Below are positions 13,501 to 39,029 of a stretch of DNA of 39,029 nt, piece by piece (positions within the stretch are counted from its first letter, which is position 1; the number at the start of each line of letters is the position of its first letter). Below the pieces are notes generated by a model. It searched no databases. It saw only the letters and a list, made by a program, of their open reading frames with translations, and was not told the origin of the DNA. Source of the DNA: Actinomycetota bacterium (lineage in GTDB: Bacteria > Actinomycetota > Actinomycetes > Nanopelagicales > Nanopelagicaceae); contig VGBN01000009.1 in NCBI GenBank assembly GCA_016870455.1, positions 1 through 39,029 of the forward strand. The letters are read 5' to 3'. Made by a program: the position numbers and the translations under genes.

Positions 13501-13965
13501 ATGAAAGAGCGAGCTGAGATTGTAGAGACAGGCGTACCACTTTTTTACAAAGCACAAATAGTTATCGATCAACCAGCTCAAAAAATTTTTGATTTTATTG
13601 CAAATCCTGCAAACCACTCATTAATGGATGGCTCTGGCATGGTGAAGAGCCGAATTGCCGGGCCTGAAAAACTTTACCTTGGGGCTAAGTTTGGAATGCG
13701 CATGAGATATGGAATCCCCTATGTGATTAGAAATCAAGTAATGGAGTTTCAAGATCAAAAGGTTATTGCCTGGCGCCATCTACTACGAAATGTTTGGAGG
13801 TATGAATTAACAGCACTGAGTCCTAACTCCACCTTGGTAGTTGAGAGTTGGGATGGCAGAAAGGTCTTGTTGAAAAATTGGCCAACAGTAAAAAGCTCGC
13901 CTAAATGGGTGCCATATGTAATGGCTAAAACTTTAGTTAAACTTAAAGGGTTAATGCAGGGATGA
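13501..13965 (+). CDS. SRPBCC (START/Bet v1-like) family protein
   Basis: 154 residues. The segment IVIDQPAQKIFDFIANPANHSLMDGSG is the standard entry strand and helix of the polyketide cyclase/START-like fold, followed by antiparallel strands (KLYLGAKFGMRMRYGIP, VIAWRHLL, WRYELTAL, STLVVESWDG) and a C-terminal helix. Such proteins bind small hydrophobic ligands or act on them; no active-site residues allow a firmer statement. It begins two bases after ctaF and overlaps the putA start by four bases, so it links the oxidase operon to putA. That position suggests cotranscription rather than a known functional tie. Confidence 0.8.
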   Translation: MKERAEIVETGVPLFYKAQIVIDQPAQKIFDFIANPANHSLMDGSGMVKSRIAGPEKLYLGAKFGMRMRYGIPYVIRNQVMEFQDQKVIAWRHLLRNVWRYELTALSPNSTLVVESWDGRKVLLKNWPTVKSSPKWVPYVMAKTLVKLKGLMQG

Positions 13966-17355: not shown

Positions 17356-18678
17356 CTATCGATTAATCAAAGGATCGATAAGTGAGGCAATTAAACTTGG
17401 GCGACCGGTTACTCTCTCTTCAAAATCTGCCGCAACAGTTGCTTTAAAGCCAGCATTTACCGCAAGATATCTAATTGGCTCTGGTTCCCAGCGGCCGATC
17501 CTTTGATTTATAAAAGGCAAATTAGCAACCTCTTCACCATTTATCATTTGCGCAAGCGTCTTGGCTACCAGATATGAGAGTGTTACACCATCTCCAACAT
17601 ATCCACCGATAGCGGCTTGTCCAGTAATTGGATTGTAATTTAAGTAGCTTTGCCACCTTCTTGTAAGTGCTACTGGACCGCCCCAACGGTATTCAAACTT
17701 AACTGATTGTAACTGTGGAAACCACTTAACTGCCCGTCTTTCTAAGGCAGAGTGCATTCGATTATCTAACTCACTTCGATTAGATAGGTGCGAGAACAAT
17801 TTATACCTAACCCCACGACCACCAATGGCTAATCGATTATCCCCGGTAATTTGAGCGTAAGTAATTAAGTTACATGCCTCTTGAAAGGTTGCGCGCTGAG
17901 TATTTCCAATTTGATTTAATATCTCAATCGGAAGCCTCTCAGTTGCAACCATAAGTGAGTAAATTGGTATTTGTTGATTTGCTAGCCATTTTCTATCTGT
18001 GAAGGCTTCAGTAGCTCGAATAGAAAGCTGGCAAGAAATCTTGTGGCCATTTACTAAAACTTGCCGATCAAAAATCTCTTCAACCTTAGAGTTCTCATAT
18101 ATCTCAACCCCAACTGCCTCTAGATAACTAGCTAGTGATTGCGTTAATTTAAAAGGGTTTAAGGCTGCGCAATGTGGGGTGAAAACACCCCCAGTTATGT
18201 TTGCCACGTTAAGCAACTTTCGTGCTTGATCTTGATTTAACAGCCTATGCTCATCATCTATCTCTCTAGAGATTCGAGTAAGTTGTGCTTTATTGGTAGC
18301 AAAAACTAAGGCACCACCCTTTGCATACTCAATTTGCCAATTATTTTCAGTAGAGATTTGGCCTATCTCATCAATGGATTCAATTAAAGCTTTACGCAGA
18401 TCTCTAAAACTTGTACTGCCATGCTCTTTAATAACTCTAGGGTTTGAGGTGGGATACTCTGCCGATGCCCACCCACCATTGCGGCCACTTGCTCCAAAGC
18501 CGACATAATTTTGTTCAAAGATTGCAATTCTTAGAGATGGCTGTAGCTGCTTCAGATGATAAGCACTCCACAAGCCACTAAATCCTGCACCAATTATTGC
18601 AATATCAAATGAGTTTGAGGAGGTAATCGATCTGCGTGCAGGTAGGGGAGTACTACCTCGCCATAAAGATCTATTCAC
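17356..18678 (-). CDS. DAO-family FAD-dependent oxidoreductase (DadA/PuuB-like)
   Basis: Flavoprotein of the D-amino-acid oxidase superfamily, about 440 residues. FAD dinucleotide motif FDIAIIGAGFSGLWSAYHL near residue 26, then FEQNYVGFGASGRNGGWAS, the fingerprint of gamma-glutamylputrescine oxidase/DadA-like amine oxidases. Later motifs: GGVFTPHCAALNPFKLTQSL, YRWGGPVALTRRWQ and GYVGDGVTLSYLVAKTLA. It probably oxidises a secondary or primary amine; the substrate is unknown. I chose the GTG at 18676-18678 because TACAAT lies six bases upstream; an ATG at 18699 would add seven residues but sits before that promoter. It converges with putA (four bases between stops), an amine or amino-acid oxidation gene as well. 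Confidence 0.83.
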   Translation of the reverse strand: MNRSLWRGSTPLPARRSITSSNSFDIAIIGAGFSGLWSAYHLKQLQPSLRIAIFEQNYVGFGASGRNGGWASAEYPTSNPRVIKEHGSTSFRDLRKALIESIDEIGQISTENNWQIEYAKGGALVFATNKAQLTRISREIDDEHRLLNQDQARKLLNVANITGGVFTPHCAALNPFKLTQSLASYLEAVGVEIYENSKVEEIFDRQVLVNGHKISCQLSIRATEAFTDRKWLANQQIPIYSLMVATERLPIEILNQIGNTQRATFQEACNLITYAQITGDNRLAIGGRGVRYKLFSHLSNRSELDNRMHSALERRAVKWFPQLQSVKFEYRWGGPVALTRRWQSYLNYNPITGQAAIGGYVGDGVTLSYLVAKTLAQMINGEEVANLPFINQRIGRWEPEPIRYLAVNAGFKATVAADFEERVTGRPSLIASLIDPLINR

Positions 18679-18684
18679 ACCCAC

Positions 18685-18690
18685 ATTGTA
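18685..18690 (-). promoter_or_regulatory. -10 hexamer of the DAO-family oxidoreductase, leaderless type
   Basis: Minus-strand TACAAT, close to the consensus TATAAT, ends six bases before GTG at 18678. It lies inside the longer reading frame that begins at 18699, which argues for the shorter protein. Confidence 0.5.
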
Positions 18691-18736
18691 AGTTAACATG
18701 TTTTAGCAAGCATCAATTGGGGTATCTAAGGAGAGC

Positions 18737-27253: not shown

Positions 27254-28606
27254 ATGATCAACCGAGAGCGACTTGCCAAACTGCGTGCAGTTGAGGGTGA
27301 ACGCTTTTTAAAAAATCATCCAAAAAGTGGCGAGTTGTTTGCAACAGCCCAAAAAAGTATGCCAAATGGTGTACCAATGTCATGGATGTCTAAATGGCCC
27401 GGTGCTTATCCGATATTTGTGGCGGAGGCCAAGGGAGCAAGGTTTGTTGATGTTGATGGCAATACCTATGTTGATCTGTGTCTAGGTGATACCGGTTCTA
27501 TGACTGGACACTCACCAGAGGCCACTGTTACCGCAATTAGAGAGCAGGTTGGTAAGGGCTTATCAGTGATGCTTCCTAGTCAAGATGCTGCAATTGTTTC
27601 AGCAGAGTTAGCTAGTAGATTTAATTTACCGCTTTGGCAATTTACAGTATCAGCGACGGATGCCAATCGTCATGCCATTCGTTATGCCCGGCTAATCACT
27701 GGAAAATCGAAATTAATTGTGATTGATCGTTGCTACCACGGAAGCGTGGATGAAACTTTTGCCACCTTAGATGAATCAGGAAAAACAGTTGCCCGGGAGG
27801 GAAATATTGGTGCACCAGTGGGGTTGGATAAAACCACCCGAGTAGTGGCCTTTAATGACTTGGATGCAATGAAGGCGGCCTTGCAGCGTGGTGATGTGGC
27901 AGCAATTTTGATGGAGCCAGCTATGACAAATGTGGGAATAGTCTTACCGCAGGATGGTTATCTTAAAGAGGTAGAAAAGTTAGCCAGACAATTTGGCGCA
28001 CTTTTGATTATCGATGAAACCCACACGATCTCAGTTGGTATTGGCGGAATGACTGCTCAACTTGCACTTTCACCTGATTTTCTAACTATCGGAAAGGCAA
28101 TTGGTGGCGGCTTTCCAACTGGTGCATTTGGTATGACAGAACAGGTTGCGCAGCAGATTAAGAAAAAGGTTGAGCTTGAGGTGATTGATACAGGTGGAAT
28201 TGGTGGCACACTAGCTGCAAATGCGTTATCGCTTGCTGCGATGCGGGCTACATTGAGTAAGGTCCTAACGCAGGAGAATTTTGATCGGATGATCAAACTT
28301 GGTAATCGTTGGGCAGATGGAGTTGAAAAGGTAATCAAACAATACAAACTGGATTGGACAGTAAATCGGCTTGGGGCAAGAGCTGAGTACATGTTTGCGC
28401 CAACTGCGCCAATAAATGGCAGGCAGGCAGCTGATGCTGGTGATTTTGAATTAGAACAATACATTCACCTGCGAATGCTCAATGATGGATTCTTGATAAC
28501 TCCATTTCACAACATGGCCTTAATTTCACCCGATACAACAGATTCAGATATTGATGGGCATACCGAGGCATTTGAAAAAATGTGTGGCGAGCTGATCGCA
28601 TCCTGA
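27254..28606 (+). CDS. Class III PLP aminotransferase, GSAM/beta-amino-acid type
   Basis: 450 residues of the fold-type-I class III family. The PLP Lys is in LTIGKAIGGGFPTGAFG, the PLP-ring Asp in LLIIDETHTISVG, and the cofactor segment in IDRCYHGSVDETFA. The N-terminal MPNGVPMSWMSKWPGAYPIFVAEAKG resembles glutamate-1-semialdehyde aminomutase and beta-phenylalanine aminotransferase. It is probably not HemL: the usual S-G-T-E-A motif of the PLP-phosphate loop reads S-A-T-D-A-N here. It could supply an amino-group transfer for the amino-acid catabolism genes downstream, but its substrate cannot be read from sequence. The GNAT gene follows after nine bases, probably in the same transcript. Confidence 0.86.
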   Translation: MINRERLAKLRAVEGERFLKNHPKSGELFATAQKSMPNGVPMSWMSKWPGAYPIFVAEAKGARFVDVDGNTYVDLCLGDTGSMTGHSPEATVTAIREQVGKGLSVMLPSQDAAIVSAELASRFNLPLWQFTVSATDANRHAIRYARLITGKSKLIVIDRCYHGSVDETFATLDESGKTVAREGNIGAPVGLDKTTRVVAFNDLDAMKAALQRGDVAAILMEPAMTNVGIVLPQDGYLKEVEKLARQFGALLIIDETHTISVGIGGMTAQLALSPDFLTIGKAIGGGFPTGAFGMTEQVAQQIKKKVELEVIDTGGIGGTLAANALSLAAMRATLSKVLTQENFDRMIKLGNRWADGVEKVIKQYKLDWTVNRLGARAEYMFAPTAPINGRQAADAGDFELEQYIHLRMLNDGFLITPFHNMALISPDTTDSDIDGHTEAFEKMCGELIAS

Positions 28607-28615
28607 TTTGATTAA

Positions 28616-29149
28616 ATGAATAATCAAATTAACTCTTCACAAATTTCGCTGCTCCCAGTCTCATCTGCAAAAGAGTTTGCAGACCAACCTTTACAGTGGA
28701 GTCTTGATTTATGGGGGGAGGGAAAAGAGGAGTTTTCAGCTGATGATTGGCGGCTTTTTTATGGGAATGCCATGAACTCTGATTACTCCAGCTGGGATCA
28801 ATATGGAGTTGATCAAGAGCTCCTTTTTATGGCTATTAGGGATATAAAAAATAATCCAGAGGTAGTTGCCTCAATTGCTATTTGTGACTTTGATGATTTT
28901 GAAGAGTGGCGACAATACAAACCGTGGATTGCTGCTTTTATTGTTAGAGAGGATCTAAGAGGAACTGGGATTGGAAGTCAGGTATTAAAGCTGGCAGAGG
29001 GAAAAGCAATTGAGTATGGAATTACAAAAATCTACCTCTGGACTGAAGGGGAGCGAGAGTTTTATGCAAAACGGGGGTATTCGTTGGTGCAACAGATGAT
29101 CAAGTCCTCTCGCACAATTGATCTTATGTCTAAAAAGCTATCTGATTAA
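28616..29149 (+). CDS. GNAT family N-acetyltransferase
   Basis: 177 residues. The acetyl-CoA binding motif is visible as AAFIVREDLRGTGIGSQVLKLAEGKAIEYG (V-R-x-x-x-R-G-x-G-x-G) near residue 105, followed by strand KIYLWTEGEREFYAKRGY, the usual GNAT ending. The acceptor is unknown. The first 60 residues are acidic and carry no other domain. The start is nine bases past the aminotransferase stop, with no distinct promoter seen. Confidence 0.85.
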   Translation: MNNQINSSQISLLPVSSAKEFADQPLQWSLDLWGEGKEEFSADDWRLFYGNAMNSDYSSWDQYGVDQELLFMAIRDIKNNPEVVASIAICDFDDFEEWRQYKPWIAAFIVREDLRGTGIGSQVLKLAEGKAIEYGITKIYLWTEGEREFYAKRGYSLVQQMIKSSRTIDLMSKKLSD

Positions 29150-29218
29150 ATCAATAGAAAAGTTAGTCAGATCACGAAAATTTTTACCTAGTTTGGGGGT
29201 AAATTCTCAGGCTCTGCC

Positions 29219-29224
29219 TATACT
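29219..29224 (+). promoter_or_regulatory. Probable -10 hexamer of the DUF305 gene
   Basis: TATACT, with transcription expected to start near 29231. That leaves a short leader holding AAGGGG at 29232-29237, five bases before the ATG at 29243. This promoter is of the leadered kind, unlike many neighbours. No good -35 was found at 17 bp. Confidence 0.45.
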
Positions 29225-29242
29225 TTCAGGCAAGGGGTTGTG

Positions 29243-29851
29243 ATGCAAATAAATATTGATAAGAAAACTGGAATCTTGCTTTCGGTAATTGGAGTTCTTG
29301 CACTCTCGCTTGCAATCCTTGGAATAAGCATGCTCTCTGGAAAGAAAGATCATGATCACTCAAACATGATGGGTGGCATGCACCACTCATCTGCAGGAAA
29401 AGTCTTATCCGCCTCTGATGCAATGTTTCTACAAATGATGATTCCACATCATGAACAAGCCATTGTTATGTCTGACTTAGCATTAAAGATTTCAAAAAAT
29501 AAAGAGTTAATAAGTCTTGCTGCGCAGATCAAAGCAGCTCAAGACCCGGAGATTACACAGATGAAAAAGTGGTTAGCAGATGATGGGTTGTCGGAGGATC
29601 CTGGCCACTCAATGGATGGTATGGGCGGCATGCTTTCCGATGATGAGTTGGTAGCCTTGGGAAATAGCACTGGATCAGAGTTTGACCGGAAATTTCTAGC
29701 GGGAATGATTGAGCATCATGTGGGGGCGGTTGAAATGGTGAAAATGCTTAATCGCACACAGGTTACAGAGCTAAAAATCTTTGGGGAGCAGATTGTAAAA
29801 ACTCAAACAAGTGAGATCGAGTTGATGCGCTCTTTGCTATCTAAAATTTAA
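29243..29851 (+). CDS. DUF305 family protein, membrane anchored, His/Met-rich
   Basis: 202 residues. A single N-terminal helix at about 9-32 anchors the protein, which would face outward. A His/Met-rich stretch follows (KDHDHSNMMGGMHHSS), then the two DUF305 half-repeats: MFLQMMIPHHEQAIVMSDLAL and FLAGMIEHHVGAVEMVKML, each with the paired-His motif. A second Met/His loop (GHSMDGMGGM) lies between them. DUF305 is a four-helix ferritin-like fold often found with copper genes. The side-chain content fits copper or another soft metal, but binding is inferred. The start ATG at 29243 follows AAGGGG; a GTG at 29240 is adjacent. Confidence 0.87.
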   Translation: MQINIDKKTGILLSVIGVLALSLAILGISMLSGKKDHDHSNMMGGMHHSSAGKVLSASDAMFLQMMIPHHEQAIVMSDLALKISKNKELISLAAQIKAAQDPEITQMKKWLADDGLSEDPGHSMDGMGGMLSDDELVALGNSTGSEFDRKFLAGMIEHHVGAVEMVKMLNRTQVTELKIFGEQIVKTQTSEIELMRSLLSKI

Positions 29852-29856
29852 TTAGA

Positions 29857-31041
29857 TTATCTAAACGCTGCTATTCCTGTTAAAGCTTGACCAAGCACCA
29901 ACATATGTATTTCATGGGTGCCTTCATATGTTAGAACAGTTTCTAGATTACTCATATGTCTAAAGATTGAGTATTCAGAGGTGATTCCAGCTCCGCCCAG
30001 AATAGAACGTGCACTTCTTGCAATCTCTAAAGCCGCATTGACATTATGAAACTTGCCCATACTGATCTGCTCAGGTTGAATCTTCTCCGAATCCTTAAGG
30101 TCGGCTAGATGATAGGCAAGCAACATCGAAGTAGTTATCTTTGTTGCCATATCAGCAAACTTTGCCTGCGTGAGCTGATGTTTTGAAATAGGTCCATCAA
30201 ACTGTTCCCGAGTTGTGGCATAAGCCAGGGAAACTTCAAAGCAATCTCGCGCAGCGCCAACTGATCCAAAAATAATTCCGTATCTTGCCTCGGCAAGACA
30301 CAAGAGTGGCGCTCTTAAACTTGTAGCCTCTGGAAGTCGGTAGGAATCTGGAATTTTCATCTCATTGAAAACTAACTCAGATGTGATTGATGCTCGCAGT
30401 GAAAGCTTATGTTTAATTGGATTGATTATTAAGCCAGCTGTTTTGGTTGGGACACAAAAACCTCTAATTCCTTCATCGGTTTGTGCCCAAATAATTGCAA
30501 CATCAGCAACACTGCCATTGGTAATCCACATTTTTGAACCATTAATTACCCAGTCAGAACCAACTTTTTTGGCAAAAGTTTTCATGCCAGAAGGATTTGA
30601 ACCATAATCTGCTTCAGTTAGTCCAAAACATCCGACTGCCTCACCCTTTGCCATCTTTGGAAGCCACTCTTGTTTTTGAGCTTCACTTCCAAATTTATTA
30701 ATTGCGAACATGGCAAGTGAACCTTGCACAGAAACTAGGGATCTAAGTCCAGAGTCAATCGCCTCTAACTCCAGGCAGGCAAGACCATATGACATCGCAT
30801 CGGTTCCAGCACATCCATAATTTTTCAAGTGCATTCCAAGCACGCCGATGCCGCCTAGTGCCTTTGCTAACTCACGAGCTGGCAGATTTCCCTCTTCATA
30901 CCAGGTTGCAATATTTGGCTTTAACTCTTTGGCAGCAAAATCTCTTACCACCGTTTGAATTGATTTTTGTTCAGCGGTTAATCTCGACTCAACCTGCATT
31001 AAAACTAAAGGGTGGATTGGTGAAGCGGCTGGTTTATTCAT
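29857..31041 (-). CDS. gcdH: Glutaryl-CoA dehydrogenase
   Basis: FAD acyl-CoA dehydrogenase that oxidises and decarboxylates glutaryl-CoA to crotonyl-CoA, the final special step of lysine, hydroxylysine and tryptophan breakdown. 394 residues. Diagnostic points: ELEAIDSGLRSLVSVQ contains Arg100, the counterpart of the human Arg94 that holds the substrate carboxylate; GCFGLTEADYGSNPS; LRASITSELVF; EARYGIIFGSVGAARDC; and the catalytic base E373 in TYEGTHEIHMLVLGQALTG. These match the glutaryl-CoA branch better than general acyl-CoA dehydrogenases. ATG at 31041 is chosen because TAGACT lies six bases upstream; a TTG two codons earlier is less likely. It lies downstream of the two other minus-strand catabolic genes with its own promoter. 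Confidence 0.92.
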   Translation of the reverse strand: MNKPAASPIHPLVLMQVESRLTAEQKSIQTVVRDFAAKELKPNIATWYEEGNLPARELAKALGGIGVLGMHLKNYGCAGTDAMSYGLACLELEAIDSGLRSLVSVQGSLAMFAINKFGSEAQKQEWLPKMAKGEAVGCFGLTEADYGSNPSGMKTFAKKVGSDWVINGSKMWITNGSVADVAIIWAQTDEGIRGFCVPTKTAGLIINPIKHKLSLRASITSELVFNEMKIPDSYRLPEATSLRAPLLCLAEARYGIIFGSVGAARDCFEVSLAYATTREQFDGPISKHQLTQAKFADMATKITTSMLLAYHLADLKDSEKIQPEQISMGKFHNVNAALEIARSARSILGGAGITSEYSIFRHMSNLETVLTYEGTHEIHMLVLGQALTGIAAFR

Positions 31042-31047
31042 ACGCAA

Positions 31048-31053
31048 AGTCTA
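31048..31053 (-). promoter_or_regulatory. -10 hexamer of gcdH, leaderless type
   Basis: Minus-strand TAGACT ends six bases before the ATG at 31041. The gap to the upstream oxidoreductase gene is 79 bp, so gcdH may be read both from this site and from read-through. Confidence 0.5.
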
Positions 31054-31120
31054 TCTAGAGGGTTTATTAGGTTGGAAGATTTTGAACTTATTAGTACCTA
31101 TTTGGTGATAAATCTCATTA

Positions 31121-32284
31121 CTAAACAATGTTGTACTCAGGTCGTAATTGCCCTGAGGTGTTAAATCTATCCGCACTTAACTTATCAATCTTTACAAAGG
31201 GTTGTTTGTTTAGGTAGAGATCTCGCAAAATTTCACCAATCGCAGGTCCTTGTAAAAAGCCATGGCCACTAAAACCTGTAGCATAGAAAAATCGAGATAC
31301 TTTGTTGAATTCACCAAGTATCGCATTATGGTCGGGTGTTACTTCATATAAGCCTGCCCAACCTTTTCCAATTCCGACCTCCATAAGCCGTGGCGCTCTT
31401 ACCATAGCGATAGCACCTAACTTCTCAAGAAACTTTGGATCACGTTTTAGATCAAAGCCAGGCTCAACAGATTTGTCAGAAAATCCCATTAACAAACCTT
31501 TACCTTCTCGATGCCAATACAAAGAGGTTGAGTAATCAATCGTCATTGGCATCTTTGGAGGTAAATCGGAAAAAGTCTCATCCAAAGCTTGGGTAATAAC
31601 TAACTCACGTTTGTATGGCTTCACAGGTAAATCCAGTCCCACCATTGCAGCTATATGTGGTGACCACACACCAGCACAATTTATTACAGCACTGGTTCTC
31701 ACCTGTCCAGCGGTGGTAGTTACTGATGTGATTTCACCAGAGTCGAGATTAATTGCACTTACCTCGGTATTTGTTAAAACTGTTGCACCAAGTTTTTTAG
31801 CTGCGCCTGCGTAACCAAGTACCACCGCCTCAGGCGTGCAGTGTCCATCATTTGGAGTAAATGATGCCGCAATTAAATCTTTTGTGTTAAGTAAGGGTGA
31901 AATCTTTCCTGCTTCATTTGGCGTCAACATTCTTGATTCGACATTAAATTGGTGATGAATCTTGGTTGATTTTTCAAACAGATCAACATCCTGCTGGTTT
32001 GTTAAAGCAAACAAATATCCAGATCGGTGTAAATCAATTTCATAACCTGGTCTACGGCTGAAATTTGTAAATAGCTCTAACGACCTAGCCCCAAGTGCTA
32101 CGTTAAATTCATCAGAAAAGTTTGCTCGAACGCCTCCGGCAGCCTTTGAGGTGGAGCCACTGGCTAACTCATTTTTCTCACAGAGTAGAACTGAAATACC
32201 AGCCTCAGCTAGATGAAATGCAGTTGCGGTACCCATCACTCCACCGCCAACAATTACAACATCTACGTGGCTAGGTAGAGACAT
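31121..32284 (-). CDS. DAO-family FAD-dependent oxidoreductase, sarcosine-oxidase-beta-like
   Basis: 387 residues. FAD motif VDVVIVGGGVMGTATAFHLAE at residues 7-27, then ELASGSTSKAAGGVRANFSDEFN, a fingerprint of SoxB/DadA-like amine oxidases. The C-terminal FYATGFSGHGFLQGPAIGEILRDLY is the second FAD-contacting block. It starts two bases after the ALDH stop, so the two are translated from one message. In the pathway proposed here it could oxidise an amino acid such as 2-aminoadipate or pipecolate to the keto or imino product; that is inference from context. It differs clearly in sequence from the second DAO-type protein at 17356-18678. Confidence 0.86.
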   Translation of the reverse strand: MSLPSHVDVVIVGGGVMGTATAFHLAEAGISVLLCEKNELASGSTSKAAGGVRANFSDEFNVALGARSLELFTNFSRRPGYEIDLHRSGYLFALTNQQDVDLFEKSTKIHHQFNVESRMLTPNEAGKISPLLNTKDLIAASFTPNDGHCTPEAVVLGYAGAAKKLGATVLTNTEVSAINLDSGEITSVTTTAGQVRTSAVINCAGVWSPHIAAMVGLDLPVKPYKRELVITQALDETFSDLPPKMPMTIDYSTSLYWHREGKGLLMGFSDKSVEPGFDLKRDPKFLEKLGAIAMVRAPRLMEVGIGKGWAGLYEVTPDHNAILGEFNKVSRFFYATGFSGHGFLQGPAIGEILRDLYLNKQPFVKIDKLSADRFNTSGQLRPEYNIV

Positions 32285-32286
32285 AG

Positions 32287-33783
32287 TTATATTTTTAAAA
32301 CAAAGTTTGGATCATGTTTAATTTCAATTGTATCCATCTGTGCTTTTTGCAACTTATTTGACCAATCCCAATTCATTGACTGCCATCTAGTAAATTGATC
32401 AAGTACCCAGATACCACTTTGCCTTGAGCCATTTCCGCTTAAGCCATTGCCGCCAAATGGTAAATGTGCTTCAGCTCCTGAAGTTGAATTGTTTATCGAG
32501 ACCATTCCAGCAGATATTCCTTCTCGGAATCGCCAAACATTTTGGGGATCCTTGGTATAAATAGCTGAAGAAAGTCCATATCCATGGCCGTTTGCAAGAT
32601 CAATTGCTTCATCTAATGTTGAAAACTTTCCAACTGTAACAAGTGGACCAAAAGTCTCAGTTGAGTAAAGCTGATCACTCTTTGCAATTCCAGCAACAAT
32701 TACTGGATGGGCAAAGTAACCCTTATCTGGATCACCTATAAAACCCTTGCGTGGATTTGAGGAGGTAATTCTGCCAGTTGATGTAGATCCCATAACTTTG
32801 TGGTGAGATTGAATCATTTTTAGGTGCTCTAAGTGATTCTCTAAATATTTTTGAGAGATCATTGGCCCAAAAAGCACATTCTGAAAGGGATCTCCTACAG
32901 CTGCATTTTCAACCAAAGATGTAAATTTTTCTAAGACTTTGTCATAAATTGAATCTTGAATCCAAAGGGTGCCAAGTGAGGTACAACGTTGCCCGGCAGT
33001 GCCAAAACCGGCAAACAATGCTCCCTCAAGTGCTAAATCTATATTTGCATCATCCATTACCACCATCGGGTTTTTGCCACCAAGCTCTAAACAAGCACTT
33101 TGAATGTACTCTCCAGCTTTTGCACCAATTTTCTTTCCGACTGCAGTTGAACCAGTAAAACCAACTTTATTGATTACACCCTCTTTAAGACCCGACTCAA
33201 GTGCGGTAAATGTTTGAATGCCATCAGCAACTACAGTTATCAAAACATCCTTTGGCACTCCACCAGCATGAAAGATTGAACTCAAGGCGTTTGCTACTGC
33301 AGGAGTGAACTCTGATGGCTTCCAAACCACAGTGTTACCAGCCAAGAGTGCAGGGACTATGTACCAAGAAGGCACTGCTGTTGGGAAATTACCTGCGGTA
33401 ATTACAAAAACATTTCCAACTGGCATGCGAAAGGTGAATAAGTTTTTATTTTGCATCTCACTTGGAACAGTTTGACCATATAAACGTCTGCCCTCACCCA
33501 GAAAGAAATCACAGGTGTCTACTACCTCTTGAACCTCACCTAGCGCCTCGGAGTAAACCTTACCCATCTCTTTGGTAATTAATCTTGCGAGTGTTTCTTT
33601 ATTACTCTCCACTAATCTGCCAACATTTGCAATTATTCGCCCTCGAGTTGGTGCTGGCAACTTTGCCCAAACTTTTTGCGCACTCTTGGCAGTTTTCAAA
33701 ACAGTAAGGATTTCATTTGCTGAGGCCTCGGGCACCGTTGCAATAACTTCATTGAGATTTGATGGGTTAGTGGATGTAAACAT
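32287..33783 (-). CDS. Aldehyde dehydrogenase, ALDH7/antiquitin-like (probable 2-aminoadipate semialdehyde dehydrogenase)
   Basis: NAD(P)-dependent aldehyde dehydrogenase, 498 residues. Catalytic C267 in GTAGQRCTSLG and E233 in CLELGGKNP. Two residues that read the aminoadipate head group in human ALDH7A1 appear conserved: Glu in GEVQEVVDTCD (E86) and Arg266 just before the catalytic Cys. NNSTSGAEAHLPFGGNGLSGNG also matches the ALDH7 TSGAE block. The tail FTRWQSMNWDWSNKLQKAQ is distinct. It would turn 2-aminoadipate 6-semialdehyde into 2-aminoadipate. First gene of a minus-strand operon with the flavoenzyme, and divergent from the ThDP enzyme across a 48-54 bp gap. AGGAG lies 11 bases before ATG, rather far. 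Confidence 0.85.
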   Translation of the reverse strand: MFTSTNPSNLNEVIATVPEASANEILTVLKTAKSAQKVWAKLPAPTRGRIIANVGRLVESNKETLARLITKEMGKVYSEALGEVQEVVDTCDFFLGEGRRLYGQTVPSEMQNKNLFTFRMPVGNVFVITAGNFPTAVPSWYIVPALLAGNTVVWKPSEFTPAVANALSSIFHAGGVPKDVLITVVADGIQTFTALESGLKEGVINKVGFTGSTAVGKKIGAKAGEYIQSACLELGGKNPMVVMDDANIDLALEGALFAGFGTAGQRCTSLGTLWIQDSIYDKVLEKFTSLVENAAVGDPFQNVLFGPMISQKYLENHLEHLKMIQSHHKVMGSTSTGRITSSNPRKGFIGDPDKGYFAHPVIVAGIAKSDQLYSTETFGPLVTVGKFSTLDEAIDLANGHGYGLSSAIYTKDPQNVWRFREGISAGMVSINNSTSGAEAHLPFGGNGLSGNGSRQSGIWVLDQFTRWQSMNWDWSNKLQKAQMDTIEIKHDPNFVLKI

Positions 33784-33825
33784 AAGAGCATTCTCTCCTA
33801 GATAAGCAAATTTAGAAAATGCCGA

Positions 33826-33831
33826 TATGGT
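33826..33831 (+). promoter_or_regulatory. -10 hexamer of the ThDP enzyme gene, leaderless type
   Basis: TATGGT ends six bases before ATG at 33838. It lies in the short divergent gap with the ALDH gene, whose own -10 is probably minus-strand TTATCT near 33798-33803, so the two promoters are within one polymerase footprint. Confidence 0.5.
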
Positions 33832-33837
33832 TTGAAC

Positions 33838-35499
33838 ATGGAAGGCTCAACTAGGACTGTTGCTGCGGTGATTTTAGAGTTGCTCGCAAAGGCCGGTGTT
33901 AAAAAGGCATTTGGAATTCCTGGCGTCCACAACCTAGCTTTTTGGAATGCGTTATCAAAAGATCTTCCAGAAATTGTCAGTGTTCGACATGAGCAAAGCT
34001 GTGTCTATGCAGCAGATGGGCTGTCTCGAGCAACTGGTCAGCTAGCGGTTGCGATTACAACCACTGGTCCAGGTGCTGCTAACACCATCGGTGCATTTGG
34101 TGAGGCATCTATATCTGGCTCTCAAGTTTTAGTAATTTCATCAGAGGCACCAATGAAAAATAGATTAAGTGAGGGTGCTCGTGGAATTTTGCATGAGATG
34201 AATGATCAAAGTGCGCTTTTTACCCCACTTGCAAAACGATTATTGATTGGTAATCAAGAGTTAGTTCTTTCAAAGAGTTGTAAATCTGCAAATGAGGCGA
34301 TCTCAACAGTTGTAGATTTCATAAAGTGCTTATCAATTGCACCAACTGGAGCTGGGTATATAGGTATACCCGCAGATCTGTTAAGCCAAGAGTATAAAGA
34401 TCCAATACCCAAGCCAAGTGAACAAGTTATTGCATTTGCTAATCGATTAGATAACACAGATTTTGATATCAAATCTGTAGAGGAACTACTCTCAGAAGTT
34501 AAAAAAATTGGAATTTGGGCTGGGGGAGGCGCCACCGAAGTCACTGAAGAGATAGCAACTCTTTCTAATCACCTAAGTGCTCCCATCTTTACCTCATTTG
34601 CTGGTCGAGGCGTGGGCAGTTCAAGTAACAATTATTTAAGTATTCCGATTCATGAGATTGAGGCCGAGAATCTTTTAGCTCAATGCGAGGCTTTATTGGT
34701 GTTTGGATCCCAGTTAGATGGCATGAACACTAAGAACTGGAGCATAAAGTTTCCACAAAAGATTGTTTTAATTGATGCCGATCCCACAAATGCACTTCGT
34801 AACATCGCAGCTGATGTGATAATTCAAAGCTCAAATCTTGCTGGGGTAATTTCTAAGTTATTAAAACTAGATGGCAGGGCAAAGTGGGTTGATTCAGCAC
34901 AGATCTCGCTTTTTGCTCGCGAAAGAATTGCCTCAAGTCAGAGCGGTGAAGCTGGCATGGCGCTGGTTGCTGCAGTTGAAAAAAGTTGGCCAAGTGAAAA
35001 TCAAATTGTTTGCGATATGGCCATCTCTGGTTACTGGATTGGAGTTTATTTAAAAGCCAATCGGCCAAGACAAATCGGGTATCCAGTTGGCTGGGGAACT
35101 TTAGGCTTTGGATTGCCAGCTAGCTTAGGAGCTAGTGCAGCTGGTCTTGCAACCTTACTTGTTTGCGGCGATGGTGGCATCGCCTTTGGCTTAGGGGAGT
35201 TAGCAACTGTGGCACAAGAGAAATTACCAGTAACAATTTTGCTCCATGATAATGGCGGATACGGAATGTTGCGATTTGATCAAAAGGTTATGCACCATCC
35301 AGAGCGAGGGGTAAATTTGTTTAACCCAAATTGGAAGATGTTAGCTGCCTCCTTTGGAATTGAGTTTATTGAAACAGATTTGAAGAATCTTGCCAAGGTT
35401 CTTAACCAGCGATCTGAAATTACCACCCCAGGTATTGTTTTGATTACCGAATCTATCTATCCGCCAAAAAGTACGAGCCCAAGGTGGAATGAACGGTAA
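33838..35499 (+). CDS. ThDP-dependent 2-oxo acid decarboxylase, AruI/acetolactate-synthase-like
   Basis: 553 residues, three-domain thiamine diphosphate enzyme. The catalytic Glu is E52 in SVRHEQSCVYAADG. The thiamine/Mg site is CGDGGIAFGLGELA with D445, closing with HDNGGYGMLRFDQ. The middle domain (about 195-340) is present. The overall pattern, with TTTGPGAANTIGAFGEAS and the C-terminal GVNLFNPNWKMLAASFG, looks nearer to AruI (2-ketoarginine decarboxylase) than to a true acetolactate synthase; no regulatory subunit gene is adjacent. In context it may decarboxylate 2-oxoadipate or another basic or acidic 2-oxo acid. ATG at 33838 is chosen on the leaderless promoter; TTG two codons earlier lies inside the spacer. 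Confidence 0.85.
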   Translation: MEGSTRTVAAVILELLAKAGVKKAFGIPGVHNLAFWNALSKDLPEIVSVRHEQSCVYAADGLSRATGQLAVAITTTGPGAANTIGAFGEASISGSQVLVISSEAPMKNRLSEGARGILHEMNDQSALFTPLAKRLLIGNQELVLSKSCKSANEAISTVVDFIKCLSIAPTGAGYIGIPADLLSQEYKDPIPKPSEQVIAFANRLDNTDFDIKSVEELLSEVKKIGIWAGGGATEVTEEIATLSNHLSAPIFTSFAGRGVGSSSNNYLSIPIHEIEAENLLAQCEALLVFGSQLDGMNTKNWSIKFPQKIVLIDADPTNALRNIAADVIIQSSNLAGVISKLLKLDGRAKWVDSAQISLFARERIASSQSGEAGMALVAAVEKSWPSENQIVCDMAISGYWIGVYLKANRPRQIGYPVGWGTLGFGLPASLGASAAGLATLLVCGDGGIAFGLGELATVAQEKLPVTILLHDNGGYGMLRFDQKVMHHPERGVNLFNPNWKMLAASFGIEFIETDLKNLAKVLNQRSEITTPGIVLITESIYPPKSTSPRWNER

Positions 35500-35503
35500 A
35501 GAG

Positions 35504-35719
35504 CTACCTAGTCAATCCAGCGGCTATAACAAAGTAGTAAATTGTGAAGATAACAGAGGCCCACAAAAATCCAGTCCACCAACTCATACTTAGCTTTAAT
35601 TTATAGGTCTGCCAATTTACTTTAGTTAGGTTTTTATCAGCCCTAACCTTGTTTCGATAGGAAACAACCATGTAAGCAGAAACCAATATTGCCCAAAAGA
35701 ACATAAAGCCAGATCGCAT
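35504..35719 (-). CDS. 71-residue two-helix membrane protein, function unknown
   Basis: A short gene between the ThDP enzyme (convergent, four bases apart) and a GNAT gene. Two hydrophobic helices at about 4-20 (GFMFFWAILVSAYMVVS) and 48-67 (GFLWASVIFTIYYFVIAAG), with a basic loop between, so both ends face the same side. I do not recognise the family. Support for a real gene: it fills the space exactly, has membrane-protein composition, and shows TAAACT six bases before its ATG. It could be a small accessory membrane protein of the catabolic island, but nothing in it points to a role. Confidence 0.65.
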   Translation of the reverse strand: MRSGFMFFWAILVSAYMVVSYRNKVRADKNLTKVNWQTYKLKLSMSWWTGFLWASVIFTIYYFVIAAGLTR

Positions 35720-35725
35720 GAGATG

Positions 35726-35731
35726 AGTTTA
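35726..35731 (-). promoter_or_regulatory. -10 hexamer of the 71-residue membrane protein gene, leaderless type
   Basis: Minus-strand TAAACT ends six bases before ATG at 35719. It lies only 8 bp past the stop of the upstream GNAT gene. Confidence 0.45.
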
Positions 35732-35738
35732 ACTCCTT

Positions 35739-36281
35739 TTAACTTAGTAACTTATAGAAAAACCAGGTTGATACAAGTTCTCCGTCGGGATTTTTAGCAA
35801 ATTGGGGAATTTCACCACTCTTACTCCACCCCCATTTTTCATAAACACCATTCACAAGAAAGTTAGTAGCTGAGTCTAGATATAAAAGCGTTAAACCAAT
35901 CTGGCGAGCATAACTGGTAGCTTCCTCTTCAAGCTTCGTTCCTATGCCGATACCCTGTGCTTTGGAATGAACCAGTAGTTTGCGCAACTCACCTCGATGC
36001 CTGCCATTGGCACGCTCCTCTCGAGTAACAATTACACAACCTTGTACCTGATTTTCTGATACCGCCAAAAACAATTTATTTTCTGATTCGCATAATGCAA
36101 TTTCATCACTCCAAAATTTATCAAAATCAGCTTCTGTAGAATCCTTCATAAATCCAACTGAAAAGTTATTATCTACTGCATCCTTTAGCAGTTGAACTAA
36201 TGAGTCTTTCATCGCGGAAGTAATATCTGCCCTAGATGCAACCCGCATGATTGAATAAGAGGAGGGTGTGATCTTTTCCAT
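35739..36281 (-). CDS. GNAT family N-acetyltransferase
   Basis: 180 residues from the ATG at 36281. Acetyl-CoA site: GELRKLLVHSKAQGIGIGTKLEEEATSYARQIG near residue 110, a Q-x-x-G-x-G/A type loop, after the strand QVQGCVIVTREE. It ends with LLYLDSATNFLVNGVYEKWGW, the usual beta6-beta7 part. Substrate unknown. An in-frame ATG at 36332 would add 17 residues but overlaps the divergent reductase gene; TACAAT six bases before 36281 favours the shorter form. Its promoter is back to back with that of the reductase. Confidence 0.85.
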   Translation of the reverse strand: MEKITPSSYSIMRVASRADITSAMKDSLVQLLKDAVDNNFSVGFMKDSTEADFDKFWSDEIALCESENKLFLAVSENQVQGCVIVTREERANGRHRGELRKLLVHSKAQGIGIGTKLEEEATSYARQIGLTLLYLDSATNFLVNGVYEKWGWSKSGEIPQFAKNPDGELVSTWFFYKLLS

Positions 36282-36287
36282 CTCGTT

Positions 36288-36293
36288 ATTGTA
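36288..36293 (-). promoter_or_regulatory. -10 hexamer of the GNAT gene, leaderless type
   Basis: Minus-strand TACAAT, one mismatch from the consensus, ends six bases before the ATG at 36281. Confidence 0.55.
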
Positions 36294-36305
36294 CGCATTC
36301 TTAAC

Positions 36306-36311
36306 TACACT
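36306..36311 (+). promoter_or_regulatory. -10 hexamer of the OCD/mu-crystallin gene, leaderless type
   Basis: TACACT ends six bases before the second ATG at 36318. The first ATG, at 36312, touches the hexamer directly and is therefore less likely to be used. Only 12 bp separate it from the opposite-facing TACAAT. Confidence 0.5.
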
Positions 36312-36317
36312 ATGGCT

Positions 36318-37235
36318 ATGGCTATTGCACAAACCCCCTTTGTTTCAGCCGATCAAATAAATAATTTGTGTTCATATGAACTAATCATGGAAAACCAAAA
36401 GCAGGTATTTAAGAATTATTTCTTGGATGAGGCTGTCATGGGTCCTCGTGCGATTTTGTCGCAAAATGAAAATGCTCAGTTCTCTTATATCGCCCGCGCC
36501 TCAAAGGATGGTCCGACTATTGTTAAATTTGGAACCGTAGTGCCAAGTAATACCTCACGAGATATTCCAGTAGTGCAGACCACGGTTTCAGTTATCGATG
36601 CGCAAACTGGAAGCGTCAAATTGTTTTTAGATGGTGAGGCAGTCACTAAGTGGCGGACTGTCTGCGCCAGTATGGCAGCAGCAAAGGAGTTAGCAAATAC
36701 AGTTGAAAAAATTGCCGTGATTGGAGTGGGTCATCAGGGTGTGGCGCATTTACAGGCGGCTCAACAAATCTTTAAACCAAAAAAAATTATTGGTATTGAT
36801 CAAGTATTAAAGAAAAATGATTTGGGAATTGAGACTACTCAAGATATACAAGCTGCATATGATTGTGACTTGATCTTCATCTGTACTAACTCTCAAGAGC
36901 CGGTTATTAAGAGTGCGTTAAATTCTGGTTCCACATGTATTTCTATTGGTTCATTTGCGCCTAATCGGCTTGAGGTATCAGTCTCGGCCTTATCTGTGGC
37001 TGATAAGGTTTTTGGCGATGATGCAAAAACTATTTCAGAACAATCAGGATCAGTGGTTAAAACCCTGGAAAATTATGAACGATCCTGGCAATACGCTCAA
37101 TCCATTGGTGGTGTATATGCTGGCAAGATCAAAGGTAGAGAGAGTAAAGAACAGGTTATTTTCTATTTCTCAGTTGGACTTGGCATTCAAGATGCGGCAC
37201 TGGCCGAATTCATACTCACCAATGGGAAGTTCTAA
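36318..37235 (+). CDS. Ornithine cyclodeaminase / mu-crystallin family reductase
   Basis: 305 residues of the OCD/mu-crystallin fold. The N-terminal half has substrate-side residues in FLDEAVMGPRAILSQ and RASKDGPTIVKFGT. FLDGEAVTKWRTVCASMAAAKEL is the family hallmark before the NAD(P) site IAVIGVGHQGVAHLQAAQ near residue 136. Members either deaminate ornithine to proline or reduce cyclic ketimines such as piperideine-2-carboxylate to pipecolate. Placed beside lysine-type catabolic genes, the ketimine reductase role is the more interesting option, but the sequence does not decide. The fusion gene follows after 19 bp. Confidence 0.87.
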   Translation: MAIAQTPFVSADQINNLCSYELIMENQKQVFKNYFLDEAVMGPRAILSQNENAQFSYIARASKDGPTIVKFGTVVPSNTSRDIPVVQTTVSVIDAQTGSVKLFLDGEAVTKWRTVCASMAAAKELANTVEKIAVIGVGHQGVAHLQAAQQIFKPKKIIGIDQVLKKNDLGIETTQDIQAAYDCDLIFICTNSQEPVIKSALNSGSTCISIGSFAPNRLEVSVSALSVADKVFGDDAKTISEQSGSVVKTLENYERSWQYAQSIGGVYAGKIKGRESKEQVIFYFSVGLGIQDAALAEFILTNGKF

Positions 37236-37254
37236 AATGATTAGGGGTAGTTAA

Positions 37255-39029
37255 GTGCAGGAGGTAGAGGCAAAAAACCTACTTAAGAAACACTGGGGAG
37301 TAAAAGCAGAATTACTCTCACTACCTAGTGAACGGGATATCAATTTTAAAGTTTGTGCTGATAAGAATTATGTTTTGAAGGTTTATCCAAAAGTGGATGC
37401 AGCTTTGAAAACCAAACTCAACCTTCAAAATAAAGTTCTTAAATTCCTTGAAGGCGAAGGCTTAACTTCCTGTCCGATGGTTGTTTCTACCAAGACTAAG
37501 AAGTTATTGGTCAATCCCAGCAAAAATTCAGCAGCCAGACTACTGAGTTTCTATGAGGGCTTGGCATGGGGTGATAGGGCAGAGCACAGTTCCGAGGAGA
37601 TCGAACGGCTGGGGCAATTGATTGCTGCAGTCGATAAAAGCTTACTTAACTTAAAGGTAAGTTCAGTAGAGAAGAAATCCTTAAATGCTCCTTTCATATG
37701 GAACATGTTGCAGGCAGGCCAGATCCTCAAATGGAGCGAAAAGATAACTGATTCAAAGTTACGGGAGTTGGTAGAAAAAACTATAAAGAGTTTCCATCTA
37801 AACTCCCTGCCTAAACTTAAAAAGATGCCGATGCAAGTAATTCATAATGATGGAAATGATTACAACATAATTGAAAAAGATGAGAGAGTATTCTTAATTG
37901 ATTTTGGAGACATGATTTACGCGCCAAAAATAGTGGGTGCTGCAGTCGCTGCCGCATATGTTGGACTTAAATCTGATGACCCGGTTAAGCAGATTTCACA
38001 GTTTGTTCGCGGTTACCACAGTGTTAATCCAATCAACCTGGAAGAGTTAGAAATTTTTATTGAGTTAGTCAAGGTGAGATTGGCATCTAGTGTGGCAAAT
38101 GCCGCTCTACAAAAGGCTCAAAATCCAGAGAATAATTACTTAACAATCTCACAAAGTGATGTGCCAAAGTGCCTTGCTCTGCTGGATCAATTTGATGACA
38201 ATTTTGCTCACTATAGATTGCGGAATGCAATTGGACTTGAGGCAAATCCAAATGCCAAATTGATTCGAGATTACCTATTAAGCAGTACTCCGGCTAACTT
38301 GTTAGATAAGCCGTTTTCTCAATTAAAGAAAGTTTATATTAATTGGTCCTTTGATAATCCTGAGATTGCCAGAAGTACTAAAGCGATTGAAGAGCTGATG
38401 GCAAAGAGTGGAGCAGAGGTATCTATTGGTTACTACTGCGAGGATAGAAATGTCTATCAAGGTGAGGCATTTAATCCAGCATCAGAAAGTGCCCGAACCT
38501 TTCACTTAGGAGTAGATATTGGAATGCCCGCAGGCACTCCTATCTACGCCCCATTAGATGGTGTGATTGAGTTGTTTAACAACAACTCAACTTATCTCGA
38601 TTATGGACCGGTTGTTGTTTTGCGCCACAAGACAGATCAAGGAATTCCATTTTGGACTCTTTATGGCCATCTTTCTATTGATTCGATCCCAGATTGGAAA
38701 ATAGGAAAAGAAATTAAGGCTGGTGACTTAATTGGTCGCATGGGTAAAGAGGAGGAGAATGTCGGTTGGCCACCACATACACATTTCCAATTACTCACTG
38801 ATTTATGTGGAATGGGAATTGATATTTATGGTGTTGCGCCAAGAGATGAGATCGCACTTTGGCGAGGGATTTCTTTAAACCCAAATTTAATTCTGGGTAT
38901 TGAAAGCGGCACAGATGCTCATGCAAAAATTGCACCCGCCAGCATTAAAAGTGATCGCCGGGTAGTAATTTCCCAAAATCTCTCACTTAACTTCAAAAAT
39001 CCAATAAATATTCTCTCTGGATCAGGGGC
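37255..39029 (+). CDS. Tripartite fusion: hydroxylysine-kinase-like APH domain, M23 peptidase domain, start of class III aminotransferase/phospho-lyase (runs off window)
   Basis: GTG start at 37255, seven bases after AGGGG; 591 codons without a stop up to the window edge. Residues 1-300 are an aminoglycoside/choline-kinase-like phosphotransferase: catalytic loop VIHNDGNDYNII (H197, D199) and Mg site LIDFGDM (D216). Residues about 410-530 are an M23/LytM domain with all zinc ligands: H417 and its paired Asp in FHLGVDIG, LYGHLS, and H508/H510 in PPHTHFQL. From about 565 the text SQNLSLNFKNPINILSGSG is the N-terminal entry of a class III aminotransferase. Human hydroxylysine kinase and 5-phosphohydroxylysine phospho-lyase are two separate proteins of these same first and last types, and fused bacterial versions are known to me from that literature. 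Probably cotranscribed with the reductase. Confidence 0.88.
   Translation, partial: MQEVEAKNLLKKHWGVKAELLSLPSERDINFKVCADKNYVLKVYPKVDAALKTKLNLQNKVLKFLEGEGLTSCPMVVSTKTKKLLVNPSKNSAARLLSFYEGLAWGDRAEHSSEEIERLGQLIAAVDKSLLNLKVSSVEKKSLNAPFIWNMLQAGQILKWSEKITDSKLRELVEKTIKSFHLNSLPKLKKMPMQVIHNDGNDYNIIEKDERVFLIDFGDMIYAPKIVGAAVAAAYVGLKSDDPVKQISQFVRGYHSVNPINLEELEIFIELVKVRLASSVANAALQKAQNPENNYLTISQSDVPKCLALLDQFDDNFAHYRLRNAIGLEANPNAKLIRDYLLSSTPANLLDKPFSQLKKVYINWSFDNPEIARSTKAIEELMAKSGAEVSIGYYCEDRNVYQGEAFNPASESARTFHLGVDIGMPAGTPIYAPLDGVIELFNNNSTYLDYGPVVVLRHKTDQGIPFWTLYGHLSIDSIPDWKIGKEIKAGDLIGRMGKEEENVGWPPHTHFQLLTDLCGMGIDIYGVAPRDEIALWRGISLNPNLILGIESGTDAHAKIAPASIKSDRRVVISQNLSLNFKNPINILSGSG

Follow-up and report, generated by a model that had tools for sequence, protein, structure and literature searches.

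Organisation of the island

The stretch of DNA analysed here (the window) is 39,029 bases long and corresponds to the entire contig C9 of a genome from the actinobacterial family Nanopelagicaceae (GCA_016870455.1, contig VGBN01000009.1; 1.01 Mb in 58 contigs, 82.6% complete). Its right-hand part, from 29857 to 39029, carries an island of genes that an earlier note, made from the sequence alone, had proposed to serve lysine or hydroxylysine degradation. All the genes named in that proposal lie at this place, and the island continues past the window, which ends inside the gene for a three-domain fusion protein. Judged from sequence, it is fairly probable that the island encodes a 5-hydroxylysine degradation route ending in crotonyl-CoA. 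The features are as follows:

29857-31047, minus strand: glutaryl-CoA dehydrogenase (GCDH; an acyl-CoA dehydrogenase), predicted to convert glutaryl-CoA to crotonyl-CoA and CO2
31121-32284, minus strand: DAO-fold flavoenzyme (Pfam DAO), candidate L-pipecolate (or 2-aminoadipate) oxidase/dehydrogenase
32287-33783, minus strand: aldehyde dehydrogenase (ALDH), candidate 2-aminoadipate 6-semialdehyde (AASA) and glutarate semialdehyde dehydrogenase
33784-33831, no strand: 48-base spacer separating two divergent units, putative promoter region by position only
33832-35499, plus strand: thiamine diphosphate (ThDP)-dependent 2-oxoacid decarboxylase-like enzyme with three Pfam TPP domains, candidate 2-oxoadipate decarboxylase
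35739-36332, minus strand: GNAT-family acetyltransferase (Pfam Acetyltransf_1, 43 bits)
36312-37235, plus strand: reductase of the ornithine cyclodeaminase (OCD)/mu-crystallin superfamily (Pfam OCD_Mu_crystall, 95 bits), probably of the ketimine-reductase type
37255 to beyond 39029, plus strand: three-domain fusion, of which the contig end leaves only the 5' part

The six island genes compared with their counterparts in the related locus L010 are not there by chance, since their dN/dS values range from 0.028 to 0.098 (GCDH 0.028, flavoenzyme 0.071, ALDH 0.029, ThDP enzyme 0.098, reductase 0.044, fusion 0.090). The named relatives that are closest by their ALDH include the freshwater actinobacteria SCGC AAA027-J17, Candidatus Nanopelagicaceae and Nanopelagicus; some titles among these relatives, such as Bifidobacterium breve at a 92% match, look like misnamed bins.

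Conservation of gene order and co-occurrence

A total of 63 loci with the ALDH were found, 16 of which form a close group (L010-L022, L029, L031 and L032; counts read from the table). Two divergent units recur, namely ALDH-flavoenzyme-GCDH and ThDP enzyme-reductase-fusion-CoA-transferase, and the gene set is kept together in related genomes, in keeping with the earlier note. The flavoenzyme lies behind the ALDH in 16/16 close loci and the ThDP gene is divergent from the ALDH in 15, the remaining locus, L032, beginning inside the ALDH. GCDH comes next in 12 of the 16 (L012 is cut), and the reductase and fusion follow the ThDP gene in 11, with L017, L020 and L032 cut earlier and L013 rearranged. 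The ALDH of L031 is split over two frames.

A census of 201 family genomes from 17 genera, with E-value limits chosen for each protein, detected the fusion in 23 genomes, the ALDH, ThDP enzyme and reductase in 25 each, GCDH in 43, the flavoenzyme in 22 and the CoA-transferase in 35. Several of the close loci lie in genomes that are also in the census, so that the gene-order and census counts are not independent. The ALDH, the ThDP enzyme and GCDH were each found in all 23 fusion genomes, including genomes where the genes lie apart, and the reductase in 22, the exception being G037, whose contig starts inside the fusion. Among genomes of at least 90% completeness, 7 of 99 carry the fusion. With regard to the phylum, the fusion was present at E<=1e-150 in only 2 of 376 genomes drawn from it, the window's own and that of the distant actinobacterium G408, and it was therefore probably gained sideways. 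The set varies even within the genus: among one-contig genomes, the seven proteins are present in G001 and G018, and G030 has none of them.

In more distant members the arrangement is looser. The g10 genomes carry reductase-fusion, ThDP, ALDH-GCDH and CoA-transferase genes (L099 and L100; L109 is cut), and four g5 genomes keep both the fusion and an ALDH-ThDP pair, on different contigs. In the g5 genome G005, the ThDP enzyme, ALDH and flavoenzyme share one contig (L102), GCDH and the fusion share another (L101), and the ALDH-ThDP pair has other flanking genes.

The three-domain fusion protein

The fusion begins with an amino-alcohol kinase domain (approximately 37255-38334), followed by an M23 fold (approximately 38500-38796) and by a class-III aminotransferase/phospho-lyase domain that starts at about 39004, with its first residues alone inside the window. 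As the window is a whole contig, it therefore holds only the kinase part, the M23-fold domain and these first residues. The whole protein was read in relatives only, where it has 973-989 amino acids (980 in the L010 copy, L010:4108-7047). Contig C40 of the same genome (equivalent to L073) opens with the last 85 residues of such a fusion, followed by a 365-residue CoA-transferase and then by EamA-like and redoxin-like genes, the same order as in L010, where a class-III CoA-transferase, an EamA transporter and a redoxin follow the fusion. From this order in relatives we infer that the two contigs adjoin and that some 300 residues of the aminotransferase domain fall between them.

The model of the kinase domain (pLDDT 87.3) has a homoserine-kinase/APH fold, with homoserine kinase 2ppq as its best match (TM 0.70/0.80); Pfam APH gave no match to this domain at E<=0.001. 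The window part of the fusion scores 476 bits with NCBIfam PRK06148. Residues D199, N204 and D216 of the kinase are kept in 16/16 full-length family rows (14 distinct) and in 4/4 alphaproteobacterial copies. In this and the following residue counts, rows and distinct sequences differ on account of two loci entered twice (L018=L106, L019=L108), and orthologues that scored below the chosen limits are left out, the partial ALDH of L032 being one of them. The lyase domain is closest in the PDB to the ethanolamine-phosphate phospho-lyase 6tor (409 bits) and the phospholyase 5g4i (299 bits; next 190), and the PLP lysine K825 of its KPxGNGHP motif is conserved in the same 16/16 family rows (14 distinct) and 4/4 alphaproteobacterial copies. 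These phospho-lyase features come from relatives, the own genome holding only both gene ends. The kinase/phospho-lyase fusion of the earlier note is borne out as to its lyase-like domain, but the M23 domain had been missed. In this lysostaphin-type fold, all five marked metal-site residues are present in 16/16 family rows (14 distinct) and 4/4 alphaproteobacterial rows. It places a peptidase-like metal site between the kinase and the phospho-lyase of an apparently cytosolic metabolic enzyme.

Ethanolamine could also be the substrate, since the nearest solved relative of the lyase domain is a phosphoethanolamine enzyme. The fusion would then be an ethanolamine (or aminopropanol) kinase/phospho-lyase yielding acetaldehyde (or propanal), with a substrate unrelated to the glutarate genes. 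The fold matches of the kinase domain, which include aminopropanol and ethanolamine kinases (6ef6, 2qg7), are consistent with this, as is the presence elsewhere of the fusion near amino-acid transporters or a decarboxylase-like gene. Nevertheless, an ALDH with the AASA-type Glu, the ThDP enzyme and GCDH accompany the fusion in 23/23 genomes, which would not be expected for ethanolamine use, and this explanation seems very unlikely. The neighbours of the plasmid relatives of the fusion were uninformative.

The aldehyde dehydrogenase

The closest solved relative of the ALDH is 6fjx (466 bits), deposited as 'Aldehyde dehydrogenase' and presumably the Thermus thermophilus enzyme, while chains named antiquitin, ALDH7A1 or AASA dehydrogenase score 256-265 bits. 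Residues E86, R266 and C267 are present in 24/24 rows (22 distinct). The first two correspond to the aminoadipate-reading pair to which the earlier note had pointed, a Glu and an Arg that we take to be E121 and R301 in human ALDH7. E86 is common to the ALDHs of three Ama-like plasmid islands and absent from GabD, BetB, AstD, two rows like 2-ketoglutarate semialdehyde (KGSA) dehydrogenase and one row like succinate semialdehyde dehydrogenase; R266 is common to AstD and the KGSA dehydrogenase-like rows.

In a tree of 19 rows, the enzyme falls in its own clade of 10 rows (support 98/99), apart from three AmaB-like rows, so the label 'ALDH7-like' proved too specific. The deeper forks of this tree, which held no animal ALDH7 row, are unsettled, and the clade may be sister to ALDH7/AmaB. 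An identity as betaine or succinate semialdehyde dehydrogenase was rejected, as the ALDH does not group with these enzymes (in this tree, GabD and BetB of E. coli have long branches).

In L028 (Nitriliruptorales), an orthologue with 59% identity lies directly behind an L-lysine 6-transaminase (621.5 bits, cut-off 520.8), and for this reason AASA is supported as the ALDH substrate. At the Solirubrobacterales loci L023, L025, L026 and L027, a ThDP relative (34-42% identity) is near the ALDH in 4/4. L024 (Nitriliruptorales) has neither gene nearby, and in L030 (Deltaproteobacteria) another class-III aminotransferase precedes the ALDH, with a GCDH relative about 9 kb away. The Nonomuraea neighbourhood was uninformative. 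An entry from plain lysine finds no support here, no lysine 6-transaminase scoring over the cut-off in this 82.6% complete genome.

Glutaryl-CoA dehydrogenase and the CoA-transferase

GCDH matches 3sf6, a GCDH, with 544 bits and 1sir, which we take to be human GCDH, with 345 bits, ahead of the short-chain acyl-CoA dehydrogenase 8sgs (213 bits); the GCDH names of 3sf6, 3swo and 2eba are the depositors' annotations. The Arg for the distal carboxylate and the catalytic Glu are kept in 22/22 rows (20 distinct). They are R102 and E375 when counted from the TTG start, and R100 and E373, the residues singled out in the earlier note, when counted from an ATG two codons later.

The earlier note had looked to the right of the window for a CoA transferase or ligase, and a class-III CoA-transferase indeed lies directly behind the fusion in relatives and on C40; the possibility that a CoA-transferase or ligase is missing was thus ruled out. 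Among NCBIfam models it scores highest with the one for succinate--glutarate CoA-transferase, though under the cut-off; its PDB matches are 4ed9 (307 bits), 10uh (291) and 9br7 (272), and the catalytic Asp141 of CoA-transferase III is present in 18/18 rows (16 distinct). GCDH and this CoA-transferase also occur together in 14 genomes that lack the fusion, not always side by side (in G003, L107, other genes lie between them). In g3 genomes of this kind (for instance G043, G054, G064, G124 and G148; L110) they are convergent neighbours, with match ends 14 bases apart. Because of this convergent neighbourhood in fusion-less g3 genomes, the pair is read as a module leading from glutarate to crotonyl-CoA, which the island extends by a hydroxylysine/AASA part.

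The ThDP enzyme and the possible fates of 2-oxoadipate

The ThDP enzyme keeps Glu54 in 23/24 rows (the other being a gap) and Asp447 in 24/24. Residue 474, near the ThDP-binding motif, is Asn in the window (HDNGG) and Asp in the 23 other rows (HDDGG-type). Its model (pLDDT 86.8) has acetolactate synthases as nearest matches both in fold and in PDB sequence, and among the best 50 fold matches listed there are only acetolactate synthases and carboxyethylarginine synthase. The enzyme stands between models of the decarboxylase type and an acetolactate synthase fold, with every score short of its cut-off.

These fold and sequence matches argue for a carboligase, either acetolactate-synthase-like or of another type. 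The complex of 2-oxoglutarate dehydrogenase, an enzyme that can act on 2-oxoadipate, would then handle this intermediate, the CoA-transferase only salvaging free glutarate. On the other hand, PRK07064 and PRK07524, the latter a 5-guanidino-2-oxopentanoate decarboxylase, outscore the acetolactate synthase models. Moreover, the gene accompanies the ALDH in all 23 fusion genomes and is divergent from it in every close locus but the one that is cut, which makes a carboligase unlikely.

Among the known fates of 2-oxoadipate, the available parts of the sources describe oxidative decarboxylation to glutaryl-CoA (PMC9367764) and conversion by HglS (PMC7286885). HglS (DUF1338) was detected in 0/201 family genomes, while the control rings in E. 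coli. The island is proposed to offer a third fate, in which decarboxylation by a ThDP enzyme would be followed by aldehyde oxidation and CoA transfer.

The reductase and the flavoenzyme

The reductase keeps K72 and R115 and has F215 where 1omo has Asp, in 19/19 rows (17 distinct); the pyrroline-2-carboxylate reductase 6t3e has Val at this place. A function as ornithine or lysine cyclodeaminase was rejected in view of this Phe at the place of the catalytic Asp, which we take to be Asp228 in ornithine cyclodeaminase; the structures aligned included 1omo, 6t3e and 6rqa but not the cyclodeaminase itself. Alanine dehydrogenase, cyclodeaminases, ketimine reductases and arginine dehydrogenase belong to the same superfamily, according to the available part of PMC4113996. 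The Phe probably favours ketimine reduction. The flavoenzyme matches Pfam DAO with 247 bits and, in the PDB, the 'sarcosine oxidase' 1y56_B with 230 bits (next 137). With the NCBIfam model for AmaA-type pipecolate oxidase it reaches 62 bits of the 600 needed, and it is 28% (over 215 residues) and 22% (over 374 residues) identical to two AmaA-like proteins.

The two enzymes may form a pipecolate branch, though they do not always occur together; a predicted joint loss of both failed, broken by the g10 and g5 genomes. Taken further, lysine degradation via L-pipecolate could be the main route, with the reductase, flavoenzyme and ALDH leading to 2-aminoadipate and the fusion providing a minor second entrance. 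The invariant Phe of the reductase, together with the Val of 6t3e, points in this direction, and so does the flavoenzyme, whose nearest relative, 1y56_B, presumably the beta subunit of a Pyrococcus L-proline dehydrogenase, would perform an analogous oxidation of a secondary amine. A bacterial L-pipecolate route has a precedent in Phaeobacter, as described in the available part of PMC5653290. Conversely, the g10 genomes are devoid of the flavoenzyme, yet have the reductase beside the fusion in two of three (the third contig is cut there), and in the g5 genomes the flavoenzyme is accompanied by no more than a distant reductase. In the census, the reductase goes along with the fusion (four of the 22 matches being only 31-32% identical), no gene for the conversion of lysine to piperideine-2-carboxylate was recognised in the island, and the identity to the two AmaA-like proteins is low. 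Pipecolate as the principal route is rather improbable.

A proposed route for 5-hydroxylysine degradation

In the preferred reading, with every substrate predicted from sequence, the kinase domain of the fusion would convert 5-hydroxylysine to 5-phosphohydroxylysine (step 1), from which the domain with the class-III aminotransferase fold would remove phosphate and ammonia to give AASA (step 2). This semialdehyde, which is in equilibrium with piperideine-6-carboxylate (P6C), would be oxidised by the ALDH to 2-aminoadipate (step 3), and a transaminase encoded elsewhere, or the flavoenzyme, would yield 2-oxoadipate (step 4). The ThDP enzyme would decarboxylate the latter to glutarate semialdehyde (step 5), to be oxidised to glutarate by the same or another ALDH (step 6). 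The class-III CoA-transferase of contig C40 would then form glutaryl-CoA from glutarate and succinyl-CoA (step 7), and GCDH would produce crotonyl-CoA (step 8). The reductase and the flavoenzyme most likely provide a side entrance, by which piperideine-2-carboxylate derived from lysine would be reduced to L-pipecolate and then oxidised to AASA. In this route every core gene but the reductase has a step, and the conversion of 2-aminoadipate to 2-oxoadipate is without a certain enzyme. A candidate for it is encoded near the island, at 27254-28606, namely a class-III transaminase that falls in subfamily PRK07046 with 615 bits (cut-off 425); within this genus the gene is also close by in L010, L011, L013, L014, L103 and L104, and it is not beside the island in L015-L021.

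A number of observations weigh against this reading. NCBIfam scores lie below the curated cut-offs for the ALDH (P6C dehydrogenase, 353 bits of 730, then KGSA dehydrogenase, 332), GCDH (best Staph_DH_FadE, 243 bits; GlutCoADH_Des, 204 of 470), the CoA-transferase (best the succinate--glutarate CoA-transferase NF052585, 350 of 750), the ThDP enzyme (PRK07064, 267; PRK07524, 239) and the reductase, and the full L010 fusion falls just under its own (1086.7 of 1128). The iminosuccinate reductase 6rqa keeps the Asp, which makes the absence of this residue from the island's reductase an ambiguous sign. None of the best 60 PDB matches listed for the fusion carries phosphohydroxylysine in its name, and no dedicated 2-aminoadipate transaminase was found within the island. 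With regard to gene order, three loci (L016, L017 and L022) run on past the flavoenzyme with no GCDH, and in L022 the ThDP enzyme is followed by other genes. Matching by coordinates places L016 in genome G142 and L017 in G130, both of which carry GCDH on other contigs. In the census, three fusion genomes, all g10 (G010, G025 and G037), lack the flavoenzyme (20/23 have it), four g5 genomes lack the CoA-transferase (19/23 have it), both at E<=1e-80, and the reductase matches of the four g5 genomes, located elsewhere, reach no more than 31-32% identity; the Fisher p values for co-occurrence (1.3e-13 to 3.1e-28) ignore kinship among genomes. Outside the family, five alphaproteobacterial stretches around the fusion, with 37-41% identity and annotation partly missing, showed no GCDH, ThDP enzyme or CoA-transferase of this kind, an annotated ALDH lying about 6.8 kb away in L113 and an FAD-binding oxidoreductase about 1.6 kb away in L115. 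Finally, the fusion of G408 (L124, G408:C42), 50% identical over its second half, has as its neighbour what by eye is a PLP decarboxylase gene, a hint that the substrate may differ in that genome.

Taken together, the island is a real, conserved catabolic unit. What the analysis establishes is its gene content and order, the co-occurrence of its genes and the conservation of catalytic residues; context gives good support for its direction and end point, while its substrate and middle step are inferred. Steps 4 and 5 and the pipecolate side entrance are the weakest parts, and the overall interpretation given in the earlier note is partly supported.

Neighbouring genes

The GNAT gene (35739-36332), which lies inside the island and was not in the gene list of the earlier note, overlaps the start of the reductase by 21 bases. 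A relative occupies the same place in L018, L019, L021, L029 and L031 and is absent there in L010, L011, L012, L014, L015 and L016; two GNAT-like genes, judged by eye, lie upstream of the reductase in the g10 loci L099 and L100. The acetyltransferase might act on a lysine-type amino acid. A DUF305/CopM-type protein (29240-29851) adjoins GCDH here and in L011, outside the conserved set. Further away, the open reading frame (ORF) list shows a 1129-residue ORF (13962-17351) that by eye resembles a proline dehydrogenase/P5C (pyrroline-5-carboxylate) dehydrogenase fusion and, convergent behind it, another flavoenzyme-like ORF (17356-18699). A search for RNA families across 28000-39029 found none.

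Relation to known systems and significance

In animals, hydroxylysine is degraded by the HYKK kinase and the PHYKPL phospho-lyase, followed by ALDH7A1, 2-oxoadipate dehydrogenase and GCDH. The island resembles this route in having a kinase, a class-III aminotransferase-fold enzyme that eliminates ammonia and phosphate, a candidate AASA dehydrogenase, GCDH and a SUGCT-like CoA-transferase. However, its kinase and lyase form one protein with an M23-fold domain in between, its ALDH belongs to another clade, and a stand-alone ThDP enzyme, an ALDH and a CoA-transferase apparently take the place of a dehydrogenase complex. With the D-lysine/pipecolate route of P. putida (AmaA, AmaB, AmaC, HglS) it would share a flavoenzyme, a P6C/AASA dehydrogenase and 2-oxoadipate, as inferred intermediates go. 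It differs in the family-wide lack of HglS, in an ALDH outside the clade of three Ama-like ALDHs, in a flavoenzyme only 22-28% identical to the AmaA-like proteins and in a route ending in GCDH. Of the Ama-like plasmid islands, so named by gene content only, L121 and L123 hold genes for an ALDH, an aminotransferase and VOC proteins, and L122 and L123 hold one for a flavoenzyme. The lysine 6-transaminase route, which pairs that enzyme with an AASA dehydrogenase, is linked to the island by the ALDH orthologue of L028, whereas here AASA apparently arises from hydroxylysine. As for the pairing of succinyl-CoA:glutarate CoA-transferase with GCDH, a SUGCT/CaiB-kind CoA-transferase III lies beside GCDH in several family genomes, but the island-type enzyme scores under the NCBIfam cut-off and its substrate is a candidate one.

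An annotated hydroxylysine kinase gene of Herbaspirillum shares an operon with an annotated 4-aminobutyrate aminotransferase; unlike the fusion, these are two separate genes, known by annotation only, and the available part of the source names no glutarate genes (PMC13275390). No paper describing a fusion of kinase and phospho-lyase, or the use of hydroxylysine by these actinobacteria, appeared in the titles and abstract openings of the open-access literature, a scope outside which most subscription papers fall. The island combines known kinds of enzyme in a new way. Feeding on collagen-type or cell-wall amino acids, as suggested in the earlier note, is conjectural. A trimethyl-hydroxylysine occurs in diatom walls, according to the available part of PMC4557024, and this is a possible source in lakes.

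If correct, the proposed route would name genes for a bacterial hydroxylysine pathway, would give a job to a ThDP enzyme whose scores stay below the cut-off of every characterised family, and would lead from 2-oxoadipate to glutaryl-CoA with neither a dehydrogenase complex nor HglS. The fuller picture is more tentative: a CoA-free decarboxylation of 2-oxoadipate by a stand-alone ThDP enzyme, fed by a three-domain hydroxylysine protein, may underlie a hydroxylysine-eating niche of streamlined freshwater actinobacteria, possibly feeding on proteins rich in hydroxylysine, for example those of diatom walls.

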